IMG/VR virus record: IMGVR_UViG_3300030051_000020
Location: 1-33,563 of that record
Strand: one strand, 5' to 3'
DNA: 33,563 bases
Origin: a virus
Below the pieces are notes generated by a model that worked only from the letters and a program-made list of their open reading frames with translations, did no database searches and was not told the DNA's origin. The translations under genes and the position numbers were made by a program. Below, piece after piece: positions 3,725 through 15,313 of the stretch; position 1 is the stretch's first letter; every line of letters begins with the position of its first letter.

Positions 3725-3949
3725 GGCGTTACCTCAATCACCCAACGGCCATTGCGGCAACGCCGTCGAAGCACGTTTTTAGTTGTGAGACGCTCAACGA
3801 AGCCCGTCACCTCACGCGCGTCGATGAGCCACCTGTGCGTGTTTCTCCAGGTGTCAGTCCCGCCCCCACTCGTGACGGAGAAGATCGAGACGGACAGCCA
3901 TCACGATCCTCGCCTGCTTATCCGTCAGCCGCTCACAGCGTTTACACAT
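3709..3949 (-). pseudogene. Winged-helix-like paralog 5, split by an apparent frameshift
   Basis: ATG at 3949 (GAGGTG eight bases upstream) opens with MCKRCERLTDKQARIVMAVRL, the family opening, but the frame stops at 3854 after 31 residues. A +1 shift near the GGGGGCGGG run (about 3859-3869) continues with WLIDAREVTGFVERLTTKNV and GRWVIE to a stop at 3709-3711, which aligns well with paralog 3 (WLGDRNVTGIVRRLQTHKLL, GRWRLE). The two pieces together give a normal-length family member. The cause may be a mutation, a sequence error in a G-run, or programmed frameshifting. It overlaps the next gene start by 16 bases, as expected of an intact array member. Confidence 0.6.
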
Positions 3950-5567: not shown

Positions 5568-6214
5568 GCCGCGATAGATGTTGCTTGTGACTGAGTGTCA
5601 CAAGCCGGCCGAGCGGACGAGCCAGCAACGCAAGGGTGCGCGAGATCGTCATCGAGAGAGAGCTTCTTGGCGAGGGCCTGGGCGGCCTTCAGCCACTCCA
5701 GGGTCATCTCGTCACCCTCGTTCGGGGCCAGCTTATCCAGCACATGGCCCTGGCCCCGCCACGCGGCGATGAGCGTCTTCTCGATGTTATGCAGCGCCTC
5801 GCGCGCCAGCTCGCCGGTCATTTCAGTGACGTGGTCGTTGGGTCGGTAGCGGGAGCTGCGCTGGGGATAGTTGCACTCGATCCCCCAGCACGCCCAGGCG
5901 TACTCATCGTTGAGCTGGATGCCTTGGAAGTAAATATCCACCGCGACGCCGCAATAGAACCACTCACCGTTTTTCCAGGCGTTCATGACCCGCGTGGCCC
6001 ACGCCTTGTGGCCGATGATTGACCGTGGGTTCTTCTGCTCGCCGATGTACCCAGGGTCTTTTGGGTCTGCGCTCGGCCAGAACCCTTCATCATCCCTGTC
6101 GGGCGGACCTGCGTCGGGGTCCTCGTGGATTGTCGCCACGAACTCGAAGCCGTCGTGTGACCACTCGACGGTGTCGCCGTTGTAGGCATCGTCGTTGAAT
6201 TTAGGGATGTCCAT
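5564..6214 (-). CDS. Conserved phage hypothetical protein with YCGV and WGIECNYP motifs
   Basis: 216 residues, ATG at 6214 with GAGG seven bases upstream. The N-terminal 50 residues are acidic (HEDPDAGPPDRDDEGFWPS). The core contains NGEWFYCGVAVDIYFQGIQL and WACWGIECNYP, a pattern I know from uncharacterised phage and plasmid proteins (W-YCGV-V and WGIE-NYP motifs). A C-terminal helix follows. The last 20 residues are read through the dyad at 5583-5605 and the -35 box of the next promoter, so the natural C-terminus may be of little functional value. Function unknown. Confidence 0.8.
   Translation of the reverse strand: MDIPKFNDDAYNGDTVEWSHDGFEFVATIHEDPDAGPPDRDDEGFWPSADPKDPGYIGEQKNPRSIIGHKAWATRVMNAWKNGEWFYCGVAVDIYFQGIQLNDEYAWACWGIECNYPQRSSRYRPNDHVTEMTGELAREALHNIEKTLIAAWRGQGHVLDKLAPNEGDEMTLEWLKAAQALAKKLSLDDDLAHPCVAGSSARPACDTQSQATSIAA
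5583..5605. promoter_or_regulatory. 17-bp dyad, copy 3, with extended arms
   Basis: GCTTGTGAC and its complement flank the five-base centre TGAGT, giving nine paired bases per arm (core 5586-5602). It overlaps the 3' end of the gene 5564-6214 and sits upstream of the promoter 5539-5567 at a position equivalent to a class I activator site. Confidence 0.6.
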
Positions 6215-7064: not shown

Positions 7065-7347
7065 TGCGAACTCCTAGTTGATAGGCCGTAATAATCTTCA
7101 ACGCTTTCCCGTGCAGCGCCGAGCCTTCGTCAGCCCGACGACACACATGGTTGTAGGCTTCCTGATTGAGGTACGCGCGCGCACTCAGCGGAGCCGTGGT
7201 TCGCACGAGTGACCACACGCTGATGCCGATACACCCAACGCCATCGGTCAGCTCAAACAGCGCCCAGCTCTCATGTTTGGCGCGGTGGATGTCATGTTGG
7301 GTCCATCCGAGCTTAGCCATCGCGGTCCTGGGGCTATATCTATGCAT
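7039..7347 (-). CDS. Hypothetical protein, paralog of the next gene upstream
   Basis: 102 residues; ATG at 7347 behind GGAGG, with an in-frame ATG at 7320 (behind AGGA) as alternative. The N-terminal half (GWTQHDIHRAKHESWALFEL) and C-terminal half (ADEGSALHGKALKIITAYQLGV) both align with the product of 7340-7759 (RWTHDDARQAALEGWWLVMG and ADEGSPMHEKALRIVAASQLGV), but the 11-residue repeats in the middle are missing and replaced by a different segment. Tandem duplication followed by middle exchange is the simple reading. Function unknown. Confidence 0.75.
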   Translation of the reverse strand: MHRYSPRTAMAKLGWTQHDIHRAKHESWALFELTDGVGCIGISVWSLVRTTAPLSARAYLNQEAYNHVCRRADEGSALHGKALKIITAYQLGVRNVPRRQPE

Positions 7348-7759
7348 CCCGTGCCTCCACCAAGTGCTCGGCTGACACGCCCAGCTGTGAAGCCGCCACG
7401 ATCCTCAGCGCCTTCTCGTGCATGGGTGATCCCTCGTCCGCCAGTGCGCCGATGCGTGTGAGCGTGGCGTCCAGGAGCGCGCCTGTGACGCGCTCGTACT
7501 CAGCCCACGCCTGATCCGTGGCGCGCGTGTACTCAGCCCACGCCTGATCCGTGGCGCGCTCGTACTCAGCGTACGCCTGACCCCTGACGCGCTCGTACTC
7601 AGCTTGCGCCTGAGCATTGACGCGCTCGTACTCAGCCCACGCCTGCGTTATGGTGGCGCGTGTCAGCTCGACACGCACGCCGCCATCGCCCATCACCAGC
7701 CACCAGCCCTCCAGGGCGGCCTGACGGGCGTCATCGTGGGTCCACCTGGGGTCAGTCAT
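7340..7759 (-). CDS. 11-residue helical repeat protein, 139 aa
   Basis: ATG at 7759 (GGAG six bases upstream), overlapping the upstream stop. N-terminal domain of about 35 residues, then nearly five copies of an 11-residue unit of the type YERATDQAWAE (residues about 40-92), then the C-terminal domain shared with the gene 7039-7347. The hendecad period fits a coiled coil or long solvent-exposed helix. Similar degenerate Y-E-R repeats occur in other phage hypothetical proteins, with no known function. The repeat DNA is shared with gene 9036-9398. Confidence 0.75.
   Translation of the reverse strand: MTDPRWTHDDARQAALEGWWLVMGDGGVRVELTRATITQAWAEYERVNAQAQAEYERVRGQAYAEYERATDQAWAEYTRATDQAWAEYERVTGALLDATLTRIGALADEGSPMHEKALRIVAASQLGVSAEHLVEARDA
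7491..7646 (-). repeat. 33-bp tandem repeat coding the 11-residue unit
   Basis: About 4.7 units of 33 bases, in frame within the gene 7340-7759. A stretch of more than 50 bases is identical to the array at 9079-9240, which suggests recent exchange between the two genes. Confidence 0.8.
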
Positions 7760-8075
7760 CACTCACTCCGATCAGCCGCATGCTCTCGCACCTGGGCTGC
7801 CCATTGGGCTGGATGACCCATTGCTCGGGCCGCCTGTCATGTTCCCCAGTGATCGCGTCCGCGATCACACCCGGAAAATCGTTGGCGGTGAGCGCCAGCA
7901 TCATCTCCACCTTGGCGAGGATACCGCAATCGGCTTCAAGGCGACACTGGCCACACCACCGCAGCCGTACTTCGTCCATCTCACGGGCGTCGGCCGGGAA
8001 ATACCTGAGCCCGCTACTGCCGGCCCGGCGATTAGCGTGCTGCCCGTGAAATAGGTCAATGCGCAAGATCGGCAT
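7752..8075 (-). CDS. Hypothetical protein with CxxC and DC motifs, 107 aa
   Basis: I prefer ATG at 8075 (AGGGG close upstream, 20-base overlap) to the longer form from 8168, which would overlap the preceding gene by more than 100 bases. The protein contains YFPADAREMDEVRLRWCGQC then EADCGILAKVEMML, with three closely spaced cysteines that could bind zinc with a later PRCESMR cysteine, and FPGVIADAITG. A related pattern occurs in uncharacterised phage proteins. Function unknown. Confidence 0.7.
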   Translation of the reverse strand: MPILRIDLFHGQHANRRAGSSGLRYFPADAREMDEVRLRWCGQCRLEADCGILAKVEMMLALTANDFPGVIADAITGEHDRRPEQWVIQPNGQPRCESMRLIGVSDD

Positions 8076-8259: not shown

Positions 8260-8461
8260 GGCGCGCTTTTTCCTCTCTCTCATCTGTCTGTGACACTCGG
8301 TCACAAAGTAATCTCCGCACGGTGATGGACTTCTCGAAATCCTTGGCGAACCGCCTCATCCGGGAGCAGTGCCTGCATGTGCAGGGCAGGATGGACGGTC
8401 CTAGCCTGCGGCGGTAGCGTCGTTCGCGCTCTCGGTAGTGGCGGTTCAACGGGATGCTCAT
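8246..8461 (-). CDS. Small basic protein with CTCRHC motif, 71 aa
   Basis: ATG at 8461 overlaps the upstream stop as ATGA. Very arginine-rich N-terminus (RHYRERERRYRRRLG) followed by CTCRHCSRM, a possible zinc knuckle. The C-terminal 20 residues are read through the dyad at 8289-8305 and into the next gene, so they are probably not conserved. A nucleic-acid-binding role is possible from charge alone; this is inference. Confidence 0.65.
   Translation of the reverse strand: MSIPLNRHYRERERRYRRRLGPSILPCTCRHCSRMRRFAKDFEKSITVRRLLCDRVSQTDEREEKARHEHN
8289..8305. promoter_or_regulatory. 17-bp dyad, copy 4
   Basis: TGTGAC and GTCACA around ACTCG, inside the 3' end of the gene 8246-8461 and 30 bases upstream of the start at 8259. 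No promoter fits between the dyad and the start. Confidence 0.55.
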
Positions 8462-8931
8462 GGCGCGCTTTTTCCTTTCCCTCGTTTGAGAAGCCTTCCG
8501 CCGTACTCAACCAACGAGGCGACTTTCTGAACTTCTTCTTTCTCGTTGGTCGCGCTCGCACTCTCCTTCGTCTCGCGCGTCCACTCGCGCGTCTCACGTT
8601 TGTCGTCTCGCGCGTCTACTCGGCCGGCTTGCGGCGCTCCGGCTTGCGCCGGTACAGTAGTGACCGTGGGTTGCGGGCGGGTGACGAAGTTCCAGCATCG
8701 CTCGCGCTCGTCGTGGGTGCGGTAGATGAACGCCATATGCCTGAACCCATGGGCGGCGTCGAACACACTCTCGATGCGCGCGCCTAGCTGGTTGGCGTCC
8801 ATGCGCGCGATCTGCTGCCAGTGCGGCGTGCCCTTGCCATCCCACGACTTGACGCGCGCGACAGCTAGGCTCATCGCATCGATCAGGTCGTCAGGTCCGA
8901 TGAGCAACCCAAGTTGTTTGATGGTGGACAT
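8458..8931 (-). CDS. Hypothetical protein carrying an in-frame dispersed repeat, 157 aa
   Basis: ATG at 8931 behind an AGAGGG purine run. Residues 1-95 look like an ordinary folded domain (MSTIKQLGLLIGPDDLIDAM, WQQIARMDANQLGARIESVF, HMAFIYRTHDERERCW). From about residue 100 to 132 the sequence becomes repeat-coded (GRVDARDDKRETREWTRETK, ESASATNEK), the same peptide found in gene 9424-10587. A final basic helix follows. The insert is probably a disordered, highly charged linker. Function unknown. Confidence 0.7.
   Translation of the reverse strand: MSTIKQLGLLIGPDDLIDAMSLAVARVKSWDGKGTPHWQQIARMDANQLGARIESVFDAAHGFRHMAFIYRTHDERERCWNFVTRPQPTVTTVPAQAGAPQAGRVDARDDKRETREWTRETKESASATNEKEEVQKVASLVEYGGRLLKRGKGKSAP
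8538..8630 (-). repeat. Dispersed GC-rich element, copy a (in gene)
   Basis: Minus-strand element with the modules GCCGGCCGAGT, ACAAACGTGAGACGCGCGAG, GGACGCGCGAGACG and GCGAGCGCGACCAACGAGAA in order. In frame in gene 8458-8931. Its modules are shared with copies at 9916-10075, 10667-10830 and 14451-14505. Confidence 0.75.
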
Positions 8932-8956
8932 TTTTCCCTCTCTCTCTCGTCTCGCG

Positions 8957-9010
8957 CGTCTCACGTTTGTCGGCTTGTGACAGTCGGTCACAAGTGGATG
9001 GACCGACACA
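8957..9010. repeat. 54-bp leader repeat containing dyad copy 5
   Basis: Identical over 54 bases to 10709-10762. It contains the dyad core TGTGAC-AGTCG-GTCACA (8976-8992) with arms extended to CTTGTGAC, plus an outer TGTCGG/CCGACA pair, so a longer hairpin can form. It lies in the 104-base gap upstream of the gene starting at 8931; just beyond it a 15-base unit (AGAGTGTCGTCACAA) is tandemly repeated at about 9012-9041. Confidence 0.75.
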
Positions 9011-9035
9011 GAGAGTGTCGTCACAAAGAGTGTCG

Positions 9036-9398
9036 TCACAAAGTCTCAGCCAGCCGGCCGAATGCGGCGGCGCAACGACGCGCGTACTCAGCGTACGCCT
9101 GATCCGTGGCGCGCTCGTACTCAGCGTACGCCTGACCCCTGACGCGCTCGTACCCAGCACACGCCTGATCCGTGGCGCGCTTGTAATCATCCCCTACCTG
9201 AGCCAGGACGCGCGTGTACTCAGCGTACGCCTGAGCTTGCAGTACCCTACGAGCGATCCAGGTCCACTGGAATAACTGGGCCGCGGCCAGACAGCCGGCC
9301 TCGGTGACGTCTATGCCGTCAGGGAAGTGCTGGTCGAACAGCGTGAGCTGGGCCTCACAGGCTTTGTGGCGGACCAGAAGTTTACGTGTAATGCGCAT
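9036..9398 (-). CDS. 11-residue helical repeat protein with different N-terminal domain, 120 aa
   Basis: ATG at 9398 behind AGGAGA. N-terminal domain (MRITRKLLVRHKACEAQLTL, FDQHFPDGIDVTEAGCLAAA) is unlike that of gene 7340-7759 and reads like a common small phage domain of unknown function. The C-terminal half is about five 11-residue units (YERATDQAYAE type) ending in RRCAAAFGRLAETL. Same repeat, different host domain: a domain-shuffling case. The stop falls in the small tandem repeat of the leader region downstream. Confidence 0.75.
   Translation of the reverse strand: MRITRKLLVRHKACEAQLTLFDQHFPDGIDVTEAGCLAAAQLFQWTWIARRVLQAQAYAEYTRVLAQVGDDYKRATDQACAGYERVRGQAYAEYERATDQAYAEYARRCAAAFGRLAETL
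9079..9240 (-). repeat. 33-bp tandem repeat, second array
   Basis: About five units, partly degenerate (one unit changed to VLAQVGDDYKR), in frame in gene 9036-9398. Shares a block of more than 50 identical bases with the array at 7491-7646. Confidence 0.8.
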
Positions 9399-9423
9399 CA
9401 AGGTCTCCTATGTCACGAATATC

Positions 9424-10587
9424 TCAAACCCAAGGATAGCGCTCGCGCAGCTGCATGTATGCGAGCACCTCGCCACTGGTCGCGAGCCACTCGCGCCGCT
9501 GGGTGATGACGCACCCGTGCTTGCGGTAGACAGCCAGCCGCACCAAGTCCAACGCCCGGCGGACCGACGCGTTGGCATACCATGTGCGGTCATCGGTCTT
9601 GAACGGTTGGTTATAGCTCATCCACGCGCGCGGCCGGTCGTGGATCGCATGGACCGAATGATAGAACCCGTTCGTGATGAACTCACGCCAGCGCTTGCGG
9701 TCCTTGAGGATCGCATATGTGTTCTCGTCACTCATGAACGTGCCCGACTGGCCCGACCCACGTGCGTTGTCAAAGGGGTGCATCGACCACGCCATGCGCA
9801 GCCAGTGCGCAAGGTCATGCGCGTCTGTCTCACGCATCGCCGCCCGCGCCTTGTTCTCGATCACAACAGGCCAGTCGAACGGTATGACGCCGGCCGGGCC
9901 GGGATGCCACTCTCGACTTTCTCGTTGGTCGCGCTCGCACTCTCTATCGTCGCCGGCTCTCTCTCTCGTCTCGCGCGTCCACTCGCGCGTCTCTCTCTCT
10001 CTCGTCTCGCGCGTCCACTCGCGCGTCTCACGTTTGTCGTCGCCGGCTCGTCCACTCGGCCGGCTATCGTCGCGACTTGTGAACGCGCAGACGCGGCGCA
10101 TCTGGTAGAACCGTCCCGGCGTCCACCAACGCTCGCTGTGACCCGTGCTGGCGTTGCCCGCGAGCCGGACGATGAAGGTGGTCTCGCCCATGTTCGCGAA
10201 CGCCGTCATATTGAATGACACGCCACGCGGCGTCGCCGCATCCGCGAACGCCGTCGTGCTTCGAGACTCGTAGCCCGTGACCACGAACGTGTCGTCTGGA
10301 CGCCACGTGACCACGTTGGTGTCATGGTAGCGCAGGGCGACGCACCCATCGTCGTACTTAATGATGCCGTGGTAGCGCTTTGTGCTCTCACCCATGCGCC
10401 GCTCGTTGGGGTGCAGCGTGTCTCCCGTGGTCTCGGACCACACGCCGCCACCACGGCCCGGAGAGCCATGCTTGATGTTGTGCGTGTAGCTCTGTGAGCG
10501 CCATCGCTTCGCGCGTTCCCACGCGGCGACCGCCTCGGCATAGCTTTCAACGTGAGGTATCTCACGACCAATCAGTGCGTAGGGCAT
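9424..10587 (-). CDS. Large hypothetical early protein interrupted by an in-frame repeat, 387 aa
   Basis: I place the start at ATG 10587 (MPYALIGREIPHVESYAEAV); the open frame extends upstream only through repeat DNA. Preceded by a GAGAGA purine run that may serve as ribosome binding site. Domain one (1-170) is mixed alpha/beta with WRPDDTFVVTGYESRSTTAF and FIVRLAGNASTGHSERWWTP. Residues about 175-225 are repeat-coded and highly charged (REWTRETRERETREWTRETR). Domain two follows (VIPFDWPVVIENKARAAMRE, KRWREFITNGFYHSVHAIHD). The interruption separates two normal-looking domains. No family recognised; an N-terminal segment like VVTWRPDDTFVV also occurs in uncharacterised phage proteins. Confidence 0.7.
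   Translation of the reverse strand: MPYALIGREIPHVESYAEAVAAWERAKRWRSQSYTHNIKHGSPGRGGGVWSETTGDTLHPNERRMGESTKRYHGIIKYDDGCVALRYHDTNVVTWRPDDTFVVTGYESRSTTAFADAATPRGVSFNMTAFANMGETTFIVRLAGNASTGHSERWWTPGRFYQMRRVCAFTSRDDSRPSGRAGDDKRETREWTRETRERETREWTRETRERAGDDRECERDQRESREWHPGPAGVIPFDWPVVIENKARAAMRETDAHDLAHWLRMAWSMHPFDNARGSGQSGTFMSDENTYAILKDRKRWREFITNGFYHSVHAIHDRPRAWMSYNQPFKTDDRTWYANASVRRALDLVRLAVYRKHGCVITQRREWLATSGEVLAYMQLRERYPWV
9916..10075 (-). repeat. Dispersed GC-rich element, copy b (in gene, longest)
   Basis: Contains two tandem copies of the GACGCGCGAGTGGACGCGCG module separated by GAGAGAGAG, with the GCCGGCGACGA module at both sides and the GCGAGCGCGACCAACGAGAA module at its 3' end on the coding strand. 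Fully in frame in gene 9424-10587. Confidence 0.8.
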
Positions 10588-10613
10588 TGGTTTATCTCTC
10601 TCTCTCGTCTCGC

Positions 10614-10663
10614 GTTTGTGTCGTAGGGCTTTGTACCAACGTAGGTTAGGCGTGTAGTTGCGC
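10614..10663 (-). repeat. 50-bp duplicate of the 3' end of the gene at 10948-11460
   Basis: Identical to 11001-11050. The copy keeps the reading frame of the source (RNYTPNLRWYKALRHK) but lies in the leader of gene 9424-10587. Both copies are flanked by the dispersed GC-rich element, so recombination through that element is a likely origin. Confidence 0.85.
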
Positions 10664-10666
10664 GTC

Positions 10667-10830
10667 TCTCTCTCTCGTCTCGCGCGTCTCACGTTTGTCT
10701 CTCTTTGTCGTCTCACGTTTGTCGGCTTGTGACAGTCGGTCACAAGTGGATGGACCGACACAAACGTGAGACGCGCGAGTGGACGCGCGAGACGAGAGAG
10801 AGAGACGCGCGAGTGGACGCGCGAGACGAT
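10667..10830. repeat. Inverted pair of dispersed elements around dyad copy 6
   Basis: The element in minus orientation (10667-10722) and in plus orientation (10757-10830) face each other across the dyad 10726-10746 (core 10728-10744). TCTCACGTTTGT on the left pairs with ACAAACGTGAGA on the right, and the outer GACGCGCGAG modules extend the pairing. The region could form a cruciform in DNA or a long stem in the leader RNA. The plus-oriented half is the only copy antisense to the local genes, and it is not in a gene. Confidence 0.75.
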
Positions 10831-10882
10831 ACTCTTTGTCGTCACAGGGTCAACCAGCTACACATATCCCTATTGAATTTGT

Positions 10883-10911
10883 ATTATAGCATACTCAGTG
10901 ACCCATGTCAA
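10883..10911 (-). promoter_or_regulatory. Consensus sigma70 promoter, leftward
   Basis: Minus-strand TTGACA (10906-10911), 17-base spacer, TATAAT (10883-10888): a perfect match in both boxes and spacing, in locally AT-rich DNA. The -35 plus first spacer bases (TTGACATGGGTCACTGA) are identical to the promoter at 13247-13275. It should drive the leftward gene block beginning at 10587 after a leader of nearly 290 bases. Confidence 0.85.
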
Positions 10912-10947
10912 GTCGAGAGGGGTGATCTCTTTTTCGTCTCGCACTCT

Positions 10948-11460
10948 CTATCGTCGCCGGCTCGTCTCTCGTCTCTCGTCTCTCGTCTCGCGCGTCTCAT
11001 GTTTGTGTCGTAGGGCTTTGTACCAACGTAGGTTAGGCGTGTAGTTGCGCACCTCGCGATCCCAAGCGTAGCGGTAACCCACGGTATCTTGTTGGCGGAT
11101 GAAGGCTAGGGCGATCATGGCCCATCGCTCATGGTGGAACGCTCGGCCTTGGATGTAGGCGAGTATCCCGTGGGCGTCGGTGAAGCGTGACCCAACAGGG
11201 ATGACGGTGACATGGTTGTCAGGGGCGGTGCGATGGAAAAAGAAGCCTCGGTCGCACGCAGTGGCTTGGCGGTACTTGGTCCACACAATCTTCGCACCAG
11301 TCCCATGAGATTGGTCCGCGAGCCTAAGCAACATCGGGTTCGTGGTGCGCGGTAGGCGCATACGCTCGATTGTCGCATCGAATTGATAATGGTCGCCATA
11401 GACGTCGTGGTAGGCGAGCTTGCGGGGCTGATAACCGTATTTTTGGCCATGTCGCGGCAT
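10948..11460 (-). CDS. Hypothetical protein with repeat-derived tail, 170 aa
   Basis: ATG at 11460 with AAGGA ten bases upstream. Sequence starts MPRHGQKYGYQPRKLAYHDV and includes GDHYQFDATIERMRLPRTTN, GTGAKIVWTKYRQATACDRG and AFHHERWAMIALAFIRQQDT; no family recognised. The last 30 residues (HKHETRETRDERRETSRRR) come from the dispersed GC-rich element, and the segment before them was copied into the leader of the next gene. The protein is basic. Confidence 0.7.
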   Translation of the reverse strand: MPRHGQKYGYQPRKLAYHDVYGDHYQFDATIERMRLPRTTNPMLLRLADQSHGTGAKIVWTKYRQATACDRGFFFHRTAPDNHVTVIPVGSRFTDAHGILAYIQGRAFHHERWAMIALAFIRQQDTVGYRYAWDREVRNYTPNLRWYKALRHKHETRETRDERRETSRRR

Positions 11461-11507
11461 CGCGTTGATTTCCTTAAGAGTTTACCAGATGGGCGCTTCG
11501 GGACAGC

Positions 11508-11537
11508 TTCATAGCAGCCGCTGTCCGGTTTCGTCAA
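11508..11537 (-). promoter_or_regulatory. Candidate promoter for the gene starting at 11460
   Basis: Minus-strand TTGACG (11532-11537), 18-base spacer, TATGAA (11508-11513) preceded by TG one base away (an extended -10). The leader would be about 40 bases. Moderate support. Confidence 0.5.
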
Positions 11538-11848
11538 TGGGTAAATGCGCGTAAGTTATTGAAATTTCAAGGCGCACGCCGATATCCACAATGTCCTGCC
11601 TAAAAAAGGGAGAGACACACGCATATAGATTGATTTTTTGTTATTAATGTCTACGTACCAACTTACACAATGGATTGATGTAAAAATCTGGCTCCCTCAT
11701 GTATCTCTTATATTTTTAGATAGGACATATAATATAATAGTAAGTGTTTTTTTATTTCAATGGGTTACAGCCACATGCGACTGGACAGAAAAATCATACG
11801 GTCGAGACATGTTACTGTCGTTTGGCATAATGTCACTACTATAGTGAT

Positions 11849-11918
11849 ATCAATGACTTAGCCCTTGTGACACTTGGTCACAAGGGCTAGCCAGGATCGA
11901 AGTCGCTAAGTCATTGAT
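11849..11918. repeat. Nested inverted repeats containing dyad copy 7
   Basis: Inner hairpin: 13 paired bases (11859-11871 with 11877-11889) around ACTTG, containing TGTGAC/GTCACA. Outer hairpin: ATCAATGACTTAGC (11849-11862) with its exact complement at 11905-11918. The arms share a few bases, so the full inner and full outer pairings compete. The arms are longer than in any other dyad copy. A weak leftward promoter (TATCAA/GCATAA on the plus strand, 11825-11853, 17-base spacer) lies just to the left. Confidence 0.75.
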
Positions 11919-12119
11919 TTCATTGACGCCACTGGTGCCTAGACATTAGGGACAACGTGTAAAACCGGACAACGTGGGCGCGTTGCCGGTTCATATAAAT
12001 GGTTTTTATACCAAGTGCATTTTCATGACTTGGTGCCACGAACGTTTTCACCAAGTCGAAAAGTCGCGCGCCGAGAGCTTGCATGGATTACACCTTTGGA
12101 CTGTAGAATACGGACATGG

Positions 12120-12149
12120 AAAAGCCCCGCTACCTTTCGGCGCGGGGCT
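12120..12149 (-). terminator. Rho-independent terminator after the gene 12190-12855
   Basis: On the minus strand AGCCCCGC, an 11-base loop and GCGGGGCT, directly followed by TTTT. It lies about 40 bases after the stop of the leftward gene at 12190, so the 13210-to-12190 transcript probably ends here. Confidence 0.8.
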
Positions 12150-12189
12150 AGACTTGATATTTTCTAAGTTGTTACCAAGGTGAAAACTA

Positions 12190-12855
12190 TCAGGCGGCTT
12201 TCTTCCGAGGCGCTTTCTTGGCTTGCGCGGTATGGAGCGCCTCGGCTTTTTCCGCCGTCATATGCGCGGCGATGGATACGAAGCCCGCAATCGCGTCGCG
12301 ATATTCCATGCCTAGCGCGCCCTCGAATTTTGCTGCGTTGGCGCTCATAAGGTGTGTCAGGTGTGTAGCCATTAGGGACATATAGCGAGAGAGTTCGCCG
12401 ATATCCGCGACGCGCGGAACGATTAGCGCGCTATCGCCAAGCGTAAGGCTTTCGGCCTCGGGCGCGCCCGGAACTTTGGGCGCGCTCTTGGCGCTCGCAG
12501 TCTTAGGCTTGTCAGTCTTTAGACCAGCGCGCTTCAAGGCGCGCGCCCAACGCTGGCGCGCCATGCCATATGTAAGCTCAATGGCTGGCGTGCGGCGCTG
12601 ATCGTCAGCCGCTTTCGACGTCGCGCCGCTCTTGCCAAGTTCTTGGTAGGAAGCCTCTTTAGACAAGCCGTGCGCTTCGGCGATGACGCCAGCGTAGAAG
12701 GCATACTTGATATCTTCCTGATCGCCTCCAGCGTCAACGATAGCCTTGATGCATACGCTTTCGGCGCGTTCGAAGGCGCCGGCCGCAATGAAAACAGTGT
12801 CGAGGACAGCGGCGCGATTGGAACCGGCATTAGCAGTTTTAGCAGCATTGGACAT
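12190..12855 (-). CDS. Hypothetical alanine-rich helical protein, 221 aa
   Basis: ATG at 12855 with GAGGA eight bases upstream; a TTG at 12870 is in frame but less likely. N-terminal region is helical (AAVLDTVFIAAGAFERAESV, EDIKYAFYAGVIAEAHGLSK), the middle has ELTYGMARQRWARALKRAGL, then a lysine/proline-rich linker (about residues 118-135), a helical C-terminal region (YMSLMATHLTHLMSANAAKF) and a basic tail KKAPRKKAA. The basic linker and tail suggest nucleic-acid or acidic-protein binding. No family recognised. It is the second gene of a two-gene unit with its own promoter and terminator. Confidence 0.8.
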   Translation of the reverse strand: MSNAAKTANAGSNRAAVLDTVFIAAGAFERAESVCIKAIVDAGGDQEDIKYAFYAGVIAEAHGLSKEASYQELGKSGATSKAADDQRRTPAIELTYGMARQRWARALKRAGLKTDKPKTASAKSAPKVPGAPEAESLTLGDSALIVPRVADIGELSRYMSLMATHLTHLMSANAAKFEGALGMEYRDAIAGFVSIAAHMTAEKAEALHTAQAKKAPRKKAA

Positions 12856-12892
12856 GATACAATTCCTCAATCAGTCGGGTTAGGGGAAGGAA

Positions 12893-12917
12893 CCTTTGTG
12901 ACATTTGGTCACAAAGG
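12893..12917. promoter_or_regulatory. 17-bp dyad, copy 8, with extended arms
   Basis: CCTTTGTGAC and its complement around ATTTG, ten paired bases per arm. It lies in the 70-base gap between the genes starting at 13210 and 12855. The flanking bases differ from those at 11849-11918 but still pair, so complementarity beyond the core is maintained. Confidence 0.65.
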
Positions 12918-12925
12918 CTTGTTGT

Positions 12926-13210
12926 TCAGATGCGCGCCAATTTGCGACGGGCTTCTGATATCTCCGCGACACAAGCGTCGCGTTGATCGATAGGCGCCTC
13001 TGGCGCGGGCTTGCGAGCCTTGCGCTTGAAGGACCACGAAAGGTTAACGCCCGCGAGTGTTGCGAAGTGTAGACCACCACGCTTACGATAGTTGACGCTG
13101 GCGAGCGGATCGAAAGCGAACGCTCGGGCAATGCGTTCATCTATGATGCGCTTGAAGTTGTTCAGCCGGCCGATGGCCGTGAAGTCTGCGATATAGCGAG
13201 GTTCCTGCAT
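12926..13210 (-). CDS. Hypothetical basic protein, 94 aa
   Basis: I use ATG at 13210 (MQEPRYIADFTAIGRLNNFK); a start at 13246 is unlikely because the promoter's -10 box is at 13247-13252. Contains RIIDERIARAFAFDPLASVN, GGLHFATLAGVNLSWSFKRK and a basic C-terminal helix (EISEARRKLARI). No family recognised. It is the first gene after the divergent intergenic region, under a promoter nearly identical to that at 10883-10911, so it is probably an early gene. Confidence 0.75.
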   Translation of the reverse strand: MQEPRYIADFTAIGRLNNFKRIIDERIARAFAFDPLASVNYRKRGGLHFATLAGVNLSWSFKRKARKPAPEAPIDQRDACVAEISEARRKLARI

Positions 13211-13246
13211 CTGGTTTCTCGTTAGCGTTGCTCTGAATGAGTACAC

Positions 13247-13275
13247 ACTATGGCATGGTCAGTGACCCATGTCAA
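13247..13275 (-). promoter_or_regulatory. Sigma70-like promoter for the two-gene unit 13210-12190
   Basis: Minus-strand TTGACA (13270-13275), 17-base spacer, CATAGT (13247-13252). Shares TTGACATGGGTCACTGA with the promoter at 10883-10911, including most of the spacer, which suggests a common regulator. Leader about 30 bases. Dyad copy 9 lies nine bases upstream of the -35 box. Confidence 0.7.
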
Positions 13276-13284
13276 ATCGGCCCT

Positions 13285-13301
13285 TGTGACAGGCTGTCAC
13301 A
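13285..13301. promoter_or_regulatory. 17-bp dyad, copy 9
   Basis: TGTGAC and GTCACA around AGGCT. Its centre is 46 bases from the downstream edge of the -10 box of the promoter at 13247-13275, about one helical turn closer than at the promoters 84-112 and 5539-5567. Confidence 0.6.
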
Positions 13302-13430
13302 GACCTATGTCACGAGCAACCAACCATGACTGTCTGTCAGTCAGGCAGCCTAGGAAGTAATTCTTTTCGCGGTCGGCGAAGGGGGGCAAGGGGTTTTTGA
13401 TCTCGCATGGGGCGGGGCTTCACCCATCTC

Positions 13431-13704
13431 ACATACATTTTTTCCAGAATTTTCAAGATTGACTTCTTGGTTAGACCTTGACGCCAACATACATTTTTTC
13501 CAGAATTTTCAAGATCGACTTCTTGGTTAGACCTTGGCGCCAACATACATTTTTCCCAGAATTTTCAAGATCTACTTCTTGGTTAGACCTTGGCGCCAAC
13601 ATACATTTTTTCCAGAATTTTCGAGATTGACTTCTTGGTTAGACCTTGGCGCCAACATACATTTTTTCCAGAATTTTCAAGATCGACTTCTTGGTTAGAC
13701 CTTG
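13431..13704. repeat. Tandem array of a 56-bp repeat, 4.9 copies
   Basis: Units begin at 13431, 13487, 13543, 13599 and 13655; the last is cut after 50 bases. Units differ at a few positions. Each has an AT-rich part (ACATACATTTTTTCCAGAAT) and a part ending GACTTCTTGGTTAGACCTTG; most junctions form the palindrome TTGGCGCCAA. There are no spacers, so it is not a CRISPR array. It ends 34 bases before the putative small terminase start, a natural place for terminase-binding (pac or cosB-like) sites; iterons or tandem operator/promoters (TTGGTT-17-TACATT per junction) are alternatives. Confidence 0.9.
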
Positions 13705-13738
13705 TCAGCGCGTGCATCTTGTGTAATGTGTGAGCATC

Positions 13739-14215
13739 ATGGCCACGACCCCGAGCCCGCTCACCATACTCGATAGCGACCCCGCGAAGATTGGGTGGCC
13801 GCCGACGCTGCCGATTGAGATCGCCCTGCGCGAGCAGACGCCGAAGGAAATCTGCGCGGCCTACGGCATCGACCGCGCGGAGTGGCAGCGCCTATGCGCC
13901 GATCCGGTGTTTGGCGCGGCCGTCCAGAAAGCCGCCGACATGCTCCAGAAAGAGGGCATGTCCTTCCGCGTCAAGGCGCAGCTCCAGTCCGAGGAACTGC
14001 TGAGGACGTCGTGGGGCCTCATACACAGTCCCAACGACCAAGTGGCCCCCAGCGTGAAGGCCGACCTGATCAAGTTCACGGTGCGCGCCGCTGGGTTGGA
14101 CGCGAGCATTGAACAGAAGGCTAATGGAGCTTTGGGGGCTGGTGCTGGCCCTGGTCTCCAGATTAACATCCACCTCACCGCTCCAGATCGGGGCGTCACC
14201 ATCGAAGGGACATGA
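13739..14215 (+). CDS. terS: Putative terminase small subunit
   Basis: 158 residues from ATG at 13739; a GTG at 13730 is an alternative and neither has a clear ribosome binding site. Residues about 15-60 read like a helix-turn-helix (IEIALREQTPKEICAAYGID, RAEWQRLCADPVFGAAVQKA), followed by a helical oligomerisation-type region (EGMSFRVKAQLQSEELLRTS) and VKADLIKFTVRAAGLD. This layout is common for a small phage protein ahead of the large terminase and fits a DNA-recognising small terminase. The 56-bp repeat array directly upstream would be its natural binding site. Assignment rests on position and pattern. Confidence 0.65.
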   Translation: MATTPSPLTILDSDPAKIGWPPTLPIEIALREQTPKEICAAYGIDRAEWQRLCADPVFGAAVQKAADMLQKEGMSFRVKAQLQSEELLRTSWGLIHSPNDQVAPSVKADLIKFTVRAAGLDASIEQKANGALGAGAGPGLQINIHLTAPDRGVTIEGT

Positions 14216-14240
14216 TCCGCGAGTAGACGCGAGATCATGC

Positions 14241-14690
14241 ATGAAGAAGGACATCTCAGTGACCGACGAAGCCCAGCCTGCCATCACCACATCCCAAACC
14301 GTCGAGAGCGGGAACACCGTCGTCCAGTCCGTGGACCCGGTCACGGGGGTCGTGACCCAGACCAGCATCTCGAACGCGTCGCGGGAAACCCCCAGCCCGC
14401 ATGTGATCGAGGAAGAAGTCACCGAGGGCGCGCTCGCGAGCGACCCGCAAGCTGGCCGAGTAGACGAGCCGGCGACGATAGAGACGACAAACGTGAGACG
14501 CGCGACCAGCGTGGAAGAGCCCGCCCCCGTGGGTCAGTTGGACAAGGCCGTGGCGCTGACACGCGCCAGGGTTCAGTCACAGGGGCTGTTCACGATGCTC
14601 CACAACGTTGGGTCGCACGCGGACCTGGACATCAAGGAGCTGGCCAAGACCGTCGAAAGCCTGATAGCCGCTCTGCGCCATCTGGTTTGA
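14241..14690 (+). CDS. Hypothetical protein with in-frame dispersed repeat, 149 aa
   Basis: ATG at 14241 (MKKDISVTDEAQPAITTSQT). First half is threonine/serine/valine-rich and probably disordered (VESGNTVVQSVDPVTGVVTQ). Residues about 71-88 (GRVDEPATIETTNVRRATS) are coded by the dispersed GC-rich element in sense orientation, but in a different frame from the early genes. The C-terminus is helical (VGQLDKAVALTRARVQSQGL, ELAKTVESLIAALRHL). Just before the start, CATGATC and GATCATG flank a remnant of the same element (CGCGAGTAGACGCGA). Function unknown; its place between the terminase genes suggests a packaging or head role. Confidence 0.7.
   Translation: MKKDISVTDEAQPAITTSQTVESGNTVVQSVDPVTGVVTQTSISNASRETPSPHVIEEEVTEGALASDPQAGRVDEPATIETTNVRRATSVEEPAPVGQLDKAVALTRARVQSQGLFTMLHNVGSHADLDIKELAKTVESLIAALRHLV
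14451..14505 (+). repeat. Dispersed GC-rich element, copy c (right arm, in gene)
   Basis: Reads GGCCGAGTAGACGAGCCGGC, GACGATAGAGACGACAAACG, TGAGACGCGCGACC, closely matching the reverse complement of the element in gene 9424-10587. It lies in sense orientation and in frame in gene 14241-14690, although this gene points the other way on the genome. Confidence 0.75.
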
Positions 14691-14953: not shown

Positions 14954-15313
14954 ATGGCCATGCCACCGTTCGCGATGAAATCCGGCAAGGGGATGATCCC
15001 CGCCAAGAAAGGAGCGCCGCGAGCCGACGCGAGCGCGACCAAGGGGAAGAGCGCGAACCCCTTCGGAAAGAAGAGCGCGAGCCCCGCCAAGGAAGGAGCG
15101 CCGCGAGCCGACGCGAGCGCGACCAAGGGGAAGAGCGCGAGCCCCCCCATGAAGGGCAAGGGACCGCCTATGAAGAAATTCGCGGGCGGTACGACGTCGG
15201 TGCCGACCCCGCCGCCCGCGCCGCTTCCCGGACCCGGAGACACGCAGACCAGCGGCAACTGGGGCTCGGGCGGCCAGAACCAGACGCTGCGGAAGACCAT
15301 TTTCGGGAAATAA
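14954..15313 (+). CDS. Lysine/alanine/proline-rich low-complexity protein, 119 aa
   Basis: ATG at 14954 behind AGGAGA. Residues 22-65 contain two copies of GAPRADASATKGKSA separated by a short basic segment; the DNA repeat (about 45 bases, from 15018 and 15103) is nearly identical. The second half holds KKFAGGTTSVPTPPPAPLPG and ends GGQNQTLRKTIFGK. The GGTTSV segment recurs in gene 23247-24194 (YMGGTTSVAAVPPKVRKFAA), so both may be related disordered virion proteins. Part of the repeat (GCGAGCGCGACCAA) resembles a module of the dispersed element. Function unknown. Confidence 0.7.
   Translation: MAMPPFAMKSGKGMIPAKKGAPRADASATKGKSANPFGKKSASPAKEGAPRADASATKGKSASPPMKGKGPPMKKFAGGTTSVPTPPPAPLPGPGDTQTSGNWGSGGQNQTLRKTIFGK

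Follow-up and report, generated by a model that had tools for sequence, protein, structure and literature searches.

Short repeats termed SAS and ESAS have been described at the translation starts of some non-structural genes of Cluster K mycobacteriophages; in the part of that report available to us they lie mostly in one orientation, about half have inverted repeats directly upstream, and their function is given as unknown (PMC3203893). In Saccharomyces mitochondria, GC clusters are mobile, small GC-rich palindromes that occur singly or in tandem, vary between strains and are linked to recombination, and their insertion in var1 results in variable protein size (PMC4464245). Rickettsia palindromic elements (RPEs) are inserted in frame in unrelated genes as units of about 100–150 bp with a conserved peptide (PMC10969869).

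The locus analysed here lies in a virus record of 33.6 kb, taken at its full length and referred to as the window, which encodes terminase, portal, major capsid and endolysin. Contigs L013, L009, G010 and G008 derive from the viral species of the window (species A), with 99.7–99.96% identity. A sister phage species that carries the same hairpin is represented by contigs L143, L158, L160 and L161. Relatives whose capsid protein is 80–87% identical span 50–66 kb where most complete. As a separate observation, a conserved gene at 1804–2913 matches phrog_1314, annotated as an HNH endonuclease; judged by eye its product appears rather to be of VWA/metallopeptidase type, beside the ATPase, and the HNH annotation may be wrong.

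Modules and their hairpin

Dispersed 14-mer pairs were counted at positions 8500–14600 of the window, giving 412 direct and 225 inverted pairs as against a maximum of 6 direct and 6 inverted in 100 order-2 or order-4 Markov simulations. The original prediction had listed recurring GC-rich modules, and recurrence was found at every place it listed, to which an overlooked half-copy at 10592–10625 is added. The module GACAAACGTGAGACGCGCGA is exact at 8585, 8952, 10019 and 10680 on the minus strand and at 14486 on the plus strand and near-exact at 10759 (plus) and 10988 (minus); its reversed control gave no match. When tokenised, the blocks resolved into mosaics of few words, mainly ACAAACGTGAGACGCGCGAG, TGGACGCGCGAG, ACGAGAGAGAGAG, GAGCCGGCGACGA and TGCGAGCGCGACCAACGAGAA, the order or ends of which are never shared between any two blocks.

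The modules are mosaics around one small hairpin, CGCG(CG)-AGTRGA-(CG)CGCG. The repeat unit as originally drawn is thereby corrected to a hairpin with the loop AGTGGA or AGTAGA, of which the copy at 14216–14235 is the short form; what had been missed is that the element is a small hairpin normally found in gene leaders and common to the sister phage. GAGACGCGCGAGTGGACGCGCGAGA folds as CGCGCG-AGTGGA-CGCGCG with -10.8 kcal/mol as RNA. Hairpins in L143 are mostly CGCG-AGTAGA-CGCG, with two variants, CGCGCA-AGTAGA-TGCGCG and CGCA-AGTAGA-TGCG. The inner four pairs form in all 16 distinct hairpin copies, and in two copies the loop-closing pair is altered on both sides (G-C to A-U). As this two-sided change breaks the direct repeat and keeps the hairpin, it was counted in favour of the latter; such covariation, being that of one pair in two copies, is suggestive and not strong, and because CGCG alternates, a 3' partner slid by two columns scores equally on some measures. 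The long hairpin stands at coding sites in 5/7 cases and the short one in 0/7 (Fisher 0.02, the copies being few and non-independent). In blocks B, D and F of the window, which are half-modules, the hairpin is incomplete.

Modules are confined to 8.5–14.5 kb of the window, and the single two-mismatch match outside that region, in G010, looks like chance. In scans of the sequence collections, the element was found in six viral contigs, every one from the window species or its sister, and 85,000 bacterial and archaeal genomes gave two chance-level singleton contigs and no other match. The search of related phages that had been proposed for the module set thus recovered it in the sister species, and in some 17 other relatives a covariance model of the hairpin gave no hit below E 0.1. 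Rfam gave no match, nor did BLASTN of gene k against isolated phages or BLASTN of the sister-phage region. Contigs L010–L012 were rejected as carriers, having one 20-mer in common by chance.

Repeats of other kinds were noted in the window. An AT-rich 56-bp unit stands five times in tandem at 13431–13704, in the divergent region beside the 13730–14215 gene, and six copies of a different 25-bp repeat lie at a similar place in the relative G012; an origin or packaging site is possible there. The genes at 7340–7762 and 9036–9401 encode paralogous proteins with 33-nt (11-aa) tandem repeats of AYAEYERATDQ type, and a similar gene with many near-identical repeats is present in the relative G024. A small lysine/alanine/proline-rich gene between gene p and the terminase contains a 67-bp direct duplication (96%) at 14995–15145.

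Copies in leaders and within genes

Hairpins of the sister phage lie mostly in 5' leaders, with an operator-like palindrome on one side and the start codon on the other; those of L143 precede the starts at 3743, 9478 and 10088, and another lies upstream of the gene k operator. Operator palindrome, module, Shine-Dalgarno and ATG usually follow one another in this order. In the window, the GAGAGAGAG part of the unit takes the Shine-Dalgarno position in both gene i (ATG 8931) and gene k (ATG 10587). For gene i this position is held by block B (8938–9010, minus strand), a half-module with a GA-rich stretch, which together with the operator palindrome makes up a 54-bp segment (8957–9010) that recurs at 10709–10762. 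Block D (10592–10625, minus strand) combines a half-module with a GA-rich Shine-Dalgarno-like stretch directly before the gene k ATG. A short hairpin, CATGATC-CGCG-AGTAGA-CGCG-a-GATCATG (14210–14239, plus strand), separates the 13730–14215 gene from gene p and stands directly before the latter. The region upstream of gene k further includes a 50-bp exact copy of the gene l 3' end (10614–10663, minus strand), a leader cassette (10665–10762, minus strand) made of modules and a copy of a 54-bp operator-bearing segment, and block D' (10766–10829, plus strand), which lies between promoter and gene k and holds long hairpins at 10772–10789 and 10806–10823. The promoter, found by consensus scan between blocks E and D' (10883–10911, minus strand), is of sigma-70 type with the perfect consensus TTGACA-17-TATAAT and an extended -10.

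A constant sense orientation had been predicted for copies inside genes, and this holds for i, k, the tail of l and p. Over all loci the orientation is sense at 12/14 by our count and is not general, since the two full copies in block D' run antisense to gene k in its leader. The exception, a promoter-proximal leader, occurs in both species: the sister phage likewise has an antisense hairpin (L143 6439–6452) about where block D' lies.

Operator-like palindromes TTGTGAC-N5-GTCACAA are themselves dispersed in leaders of the window (5584–5607, 8971–8994, 10723–10744, 11861–11882, 12892–12913 and 13280–13301); in L143 about 11 operator-like palindromes read TTGTGACAGGTGTCACAA, and those of other relatives differ from these in sequence. 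The promoter-like sites at 10883–10911 and 13247–13275 lie within similar 31-bp segments.

Candidate functions of other kinds were discarded. A promoter for a phage-specific RNA polymerase was considered because one sister-phage leader follows a terminator-like hairpin, and was rejected as no RNA polymerase was found among the proteins scanned; the one match of a 2332-aa protein is to a PHROG of unknown function. Sites of CsrA type and of lambda boxB type were also considered, and were dropped since the AGTAGA loop is without GGA and the promoter-proximal copies are antisense.

Leader position, sense orientation and the order of operator, hairpin and start would all be expected of a purely regulatory start-associated hairpin acting in RNA binding or translation control, with copy number tuned by selection and intragenic copies overlapping signals of neighbouring genes, not spreading as repeats. 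The hairpin near the start of gene p fits this account, and the Cluster K repeats, as far as described in the part of the source at hand, provide a precedent (PMC3203893). We nevertheless regard it as rather unlikely, as block C lies deep within gene k, distant from any start, and is missing in homologues, half-modules and module-bounded duplications are unexpected, and arrays differ in strains separated by only 2 SNPs.

Block C (9912–10075, minus strand) is an in-frame insertion of about 55 codons in gene k (387 aa, 9424–10587, minus strand). It contains tandem long hairpins (9972–9989 and 10008–10025) that form a 36-bp tandem repeat, 100% identical by TRF. Homologues of k from six related phages (L143/G014, G012, G018, G019, G020 and G016) can be aligned to it on either side of block C, and none of them has the block, so that the proposed comparison of gene versions bears out the in-frame insertion. 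Homologues carrying the same segment at the same place with conserved protein sequence, which would have marked it as an old domain, were looked for among these relatives and not found. Gene p (149 aa, 14241–14690, plus strand) contains block F, a half-module at 14451–14513 (plus strand), and its L143 homologue (10944–11474) is without the block, in a variable region where the alignment is weaker than for k. Gene i (157 aa, 8458–8931, minus strand) ends in a C-terminal tail, RDDKRETREWTRETKESASATNEKE, encoded by block A (8538–8640, minus strand), that is by the hairpin at 8574–8591 and its flanking modules. Single-protein searches with gene i and with the C-terminal part of protein k returned matches from the same species only, and a structure model of k had a mean pLDDT of 48, too low for placing the insert.

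The use of two reading frames, also part of the original prediction, was verified: KRETREW is encoded in i, k and l, and TNVRRA in p, where block F is read in the other frame (GRVDEPATIETTNVRRATS). GAGAGTGCGAGCGCGACCAACGAGAA is read as ESASATNEK in i and as RECERDQRE in k, and other identical DNA as GRAGDD in k and DEPATI in p. As the frame in which this DNA is read changes from one protein to another, it is not an old protein domain. Selection for a charged, disordered linker, with the DNA repeats arising from codon choice, might be suggested by the charged KRETREW-type peptides and by 12-nt units that preserve the frame; it is very improbable given identical DNA in two frames, many non-coding copies and homologues that do without it.

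Rearrangement between near-identical strains

Strains of species A were compared over three contigs. Over 18 kb, about 20 SNPs separate the window from L013. The sole rearrangement between them is replacement of the module block at 10931–10987 by another assortment that includes a run of six 12-bp units. The replaced segment is part of the hypervariable block E (10925–11010, minus strand) at the 3' end of gene l (10948–11460, minus strand), the C-terminus of which is changed accordingly, from HETRETRDERRETSRRR in the window to HETREPAE in L013 and in L009, which comes from a different sample and has the L013 allele. Blocks A–D are identical in the window and L013 apart from SNPs.

In the sister phage, 13 kb of L143 and L158 show 2 SNPs, yet two module events separate these strains, namely an indel at the gene l end and a copy number of two versus four in the leader at 10018. 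The gene l end carries a 52-bp presence/absence polymorphism in this species, and this gene-end hotspot is the same in both species. Among the four strains, the array in the leader that precedes L143 10088 numbers 2 or 4 copies or is rearranged, and alternative sister-species alleles occur at L143 6554–6609 and 10018. L160 has a third arrangement; L161 is arranged as L158, is 24 SNPs from L143 and has changed at two places outside modules, one a proline/threonine-rich coding repeat and the other a 10-bp insertion. The insertions of L161 (L143 coordinates 9757–9910) mark proline/threonine-rich (ACTCCC)n coding repeats as a second kind of repeat that varies among sister-phage strains. Of 6 structural events that measure at least 10 bp, at least 4 fall in modules by our count, giving a binomial value of 4e-5 against an assumed 4% of sequence. 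Module rearrangement is far faster than point change.

Short reads assemble repeats poorly, and an assembly artefact, or chance low complexity, has to be weighed for such a locus. It is barely credible here, as the simulations yield almost no such repeats, L013 and L009 give the same allele in two samples and the element is common to two species. Moreover, the window allele contains strings unique in the window (such as four consecutive ACGAGAG units) and so does not stem from mis-joining of other copies.

Two duplications are bounded by modules, one of 54 bp that includes an operator (8957–9010 and 10709–10762) and one of 50 bp (10614–10663 and 11001–11050). Mobility or spread by recombination had been proposed for the element; spread by recombination gains support from block rearrangement in near-identical strains and from these module-flanked segments. 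Several insertion sites, insert-free homologues and the polymorphism at the sister-phage gene l end could also reflect a MITE-like or RPE-like mobile element served in trans by a transposase or nuclease. This is improbable. As far as insertion ends can be placed, matches at block ends are of 5–6 bp, which is chance length, and the blocks show no common ends, clear target duplication or terminal inverted repeats beyond 5 bp. No transposase was found among the proteins scanned, a set covering part of the small ORFs, and the bacterial and archaeal genomes supplied only the two chance-level singletons.

Proposed origin and comparison with known systems

The explanation we favour, and consider probable, is that a lineage-specific hairpin associated with gene starts is multiplied and moved about by slippage or by recombination at short homologies, and has spread into gene ends and gene k. 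The element would measure about 25–35 bp, GTGAGA-CGCG(CG)-AGTRGA-(CG)CGCG-AGAC plus a GA-rich stretch, and the blocks would be its copies and fragments. Its home site would be the 5' leader between operator-like palindrome and start codon, in sense direction, a position that suggests it probably acts when early and packaging-side genes are transcribed or translated. Being GC-rich, self-complementary and repeated, the element would be a hotspot, where slipped-strand synthesis may expand 12- or 34-bp units and annealing at short homologies may copy modules to other sites. In the window phage the long form would have spread into gene ends and, in frame, into gene k; insertions would persist only where the frame stays open and the site is a linker or tail, harmful ones being purged. 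The ancestral form, probably a functional one, appears to be the leader hairpin, whose long form would have expanded in the window species. Slippage and short-homology recombination would account for the mosaics and duplicated flanks as well as for the changes in arrays. Among its proteins scanned, the species has an SNF2 helicase and homologues of exonucleases of RecB-like (PD-(D/E)XK) and DnaQ-like type, and no annealing protein was identified.

A more general reading can be put forward tentatively, namely that a non-autonomous regulatory hairpin of phages might need nothing but recombination to spread in a single genome, passing back and forth among leaders, the ends of genes and their interiors and so generating new regulatory regions and in-frame protein segments. 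If true, this would provide a simple route from phage regulatory sequence to new protein sequence. As module number already differs at a distance of two SNPs, the process could be followed within a population.

The resemblance to RPEs that had been suggested is upheld for in-frame insertion, with insert-free homologues for gene k and, by the weaker alignment, for gene p, and fails for membership. Unlike RPEs, the blocks measure 34–164 bp, are different mosaics with no shared ends in place of a fixed unit, and are read in two frames across genes in place of a single conserved peptide. Like SAS, as far as the available part of the source describes them, the element lies directly upstream of starts and mostly in one orientation, as seen in leaders of L143 and the window (PMC3203893). 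The 13-bp SAS consensus GGGATAGGAGCCC has no match in the window at up to 2 mismatches, ESAS are imperfect 17-bp inverted repeats whereas the arms here are 4–6 bp around a 6-nt loop, and that part of the source makes no mention of in-gene copies or strain-level rearrangement (PMC3203893). With yeast GC clusters the element shares a GC-rich palindromic nature, strain variability, tandem arrays and optional in-frame copies in genes. The likeness is one of behaviour, not descent: the yeast clusters reside in an AT-rich mitochondrial genome as 30–80 bp classes with about 120 copies per genome (PMC4464245), whereas the element here stays within a few kb in a phage and is tied to gene starts. It behaves as a mixture of Cluster K SAS and yeast GC clusters, is a member of neither nor of the RPEs, and joins phage start-associated repeats with small GC-rich hairpins that move in frame into genes, two phenomena usually seen apart.
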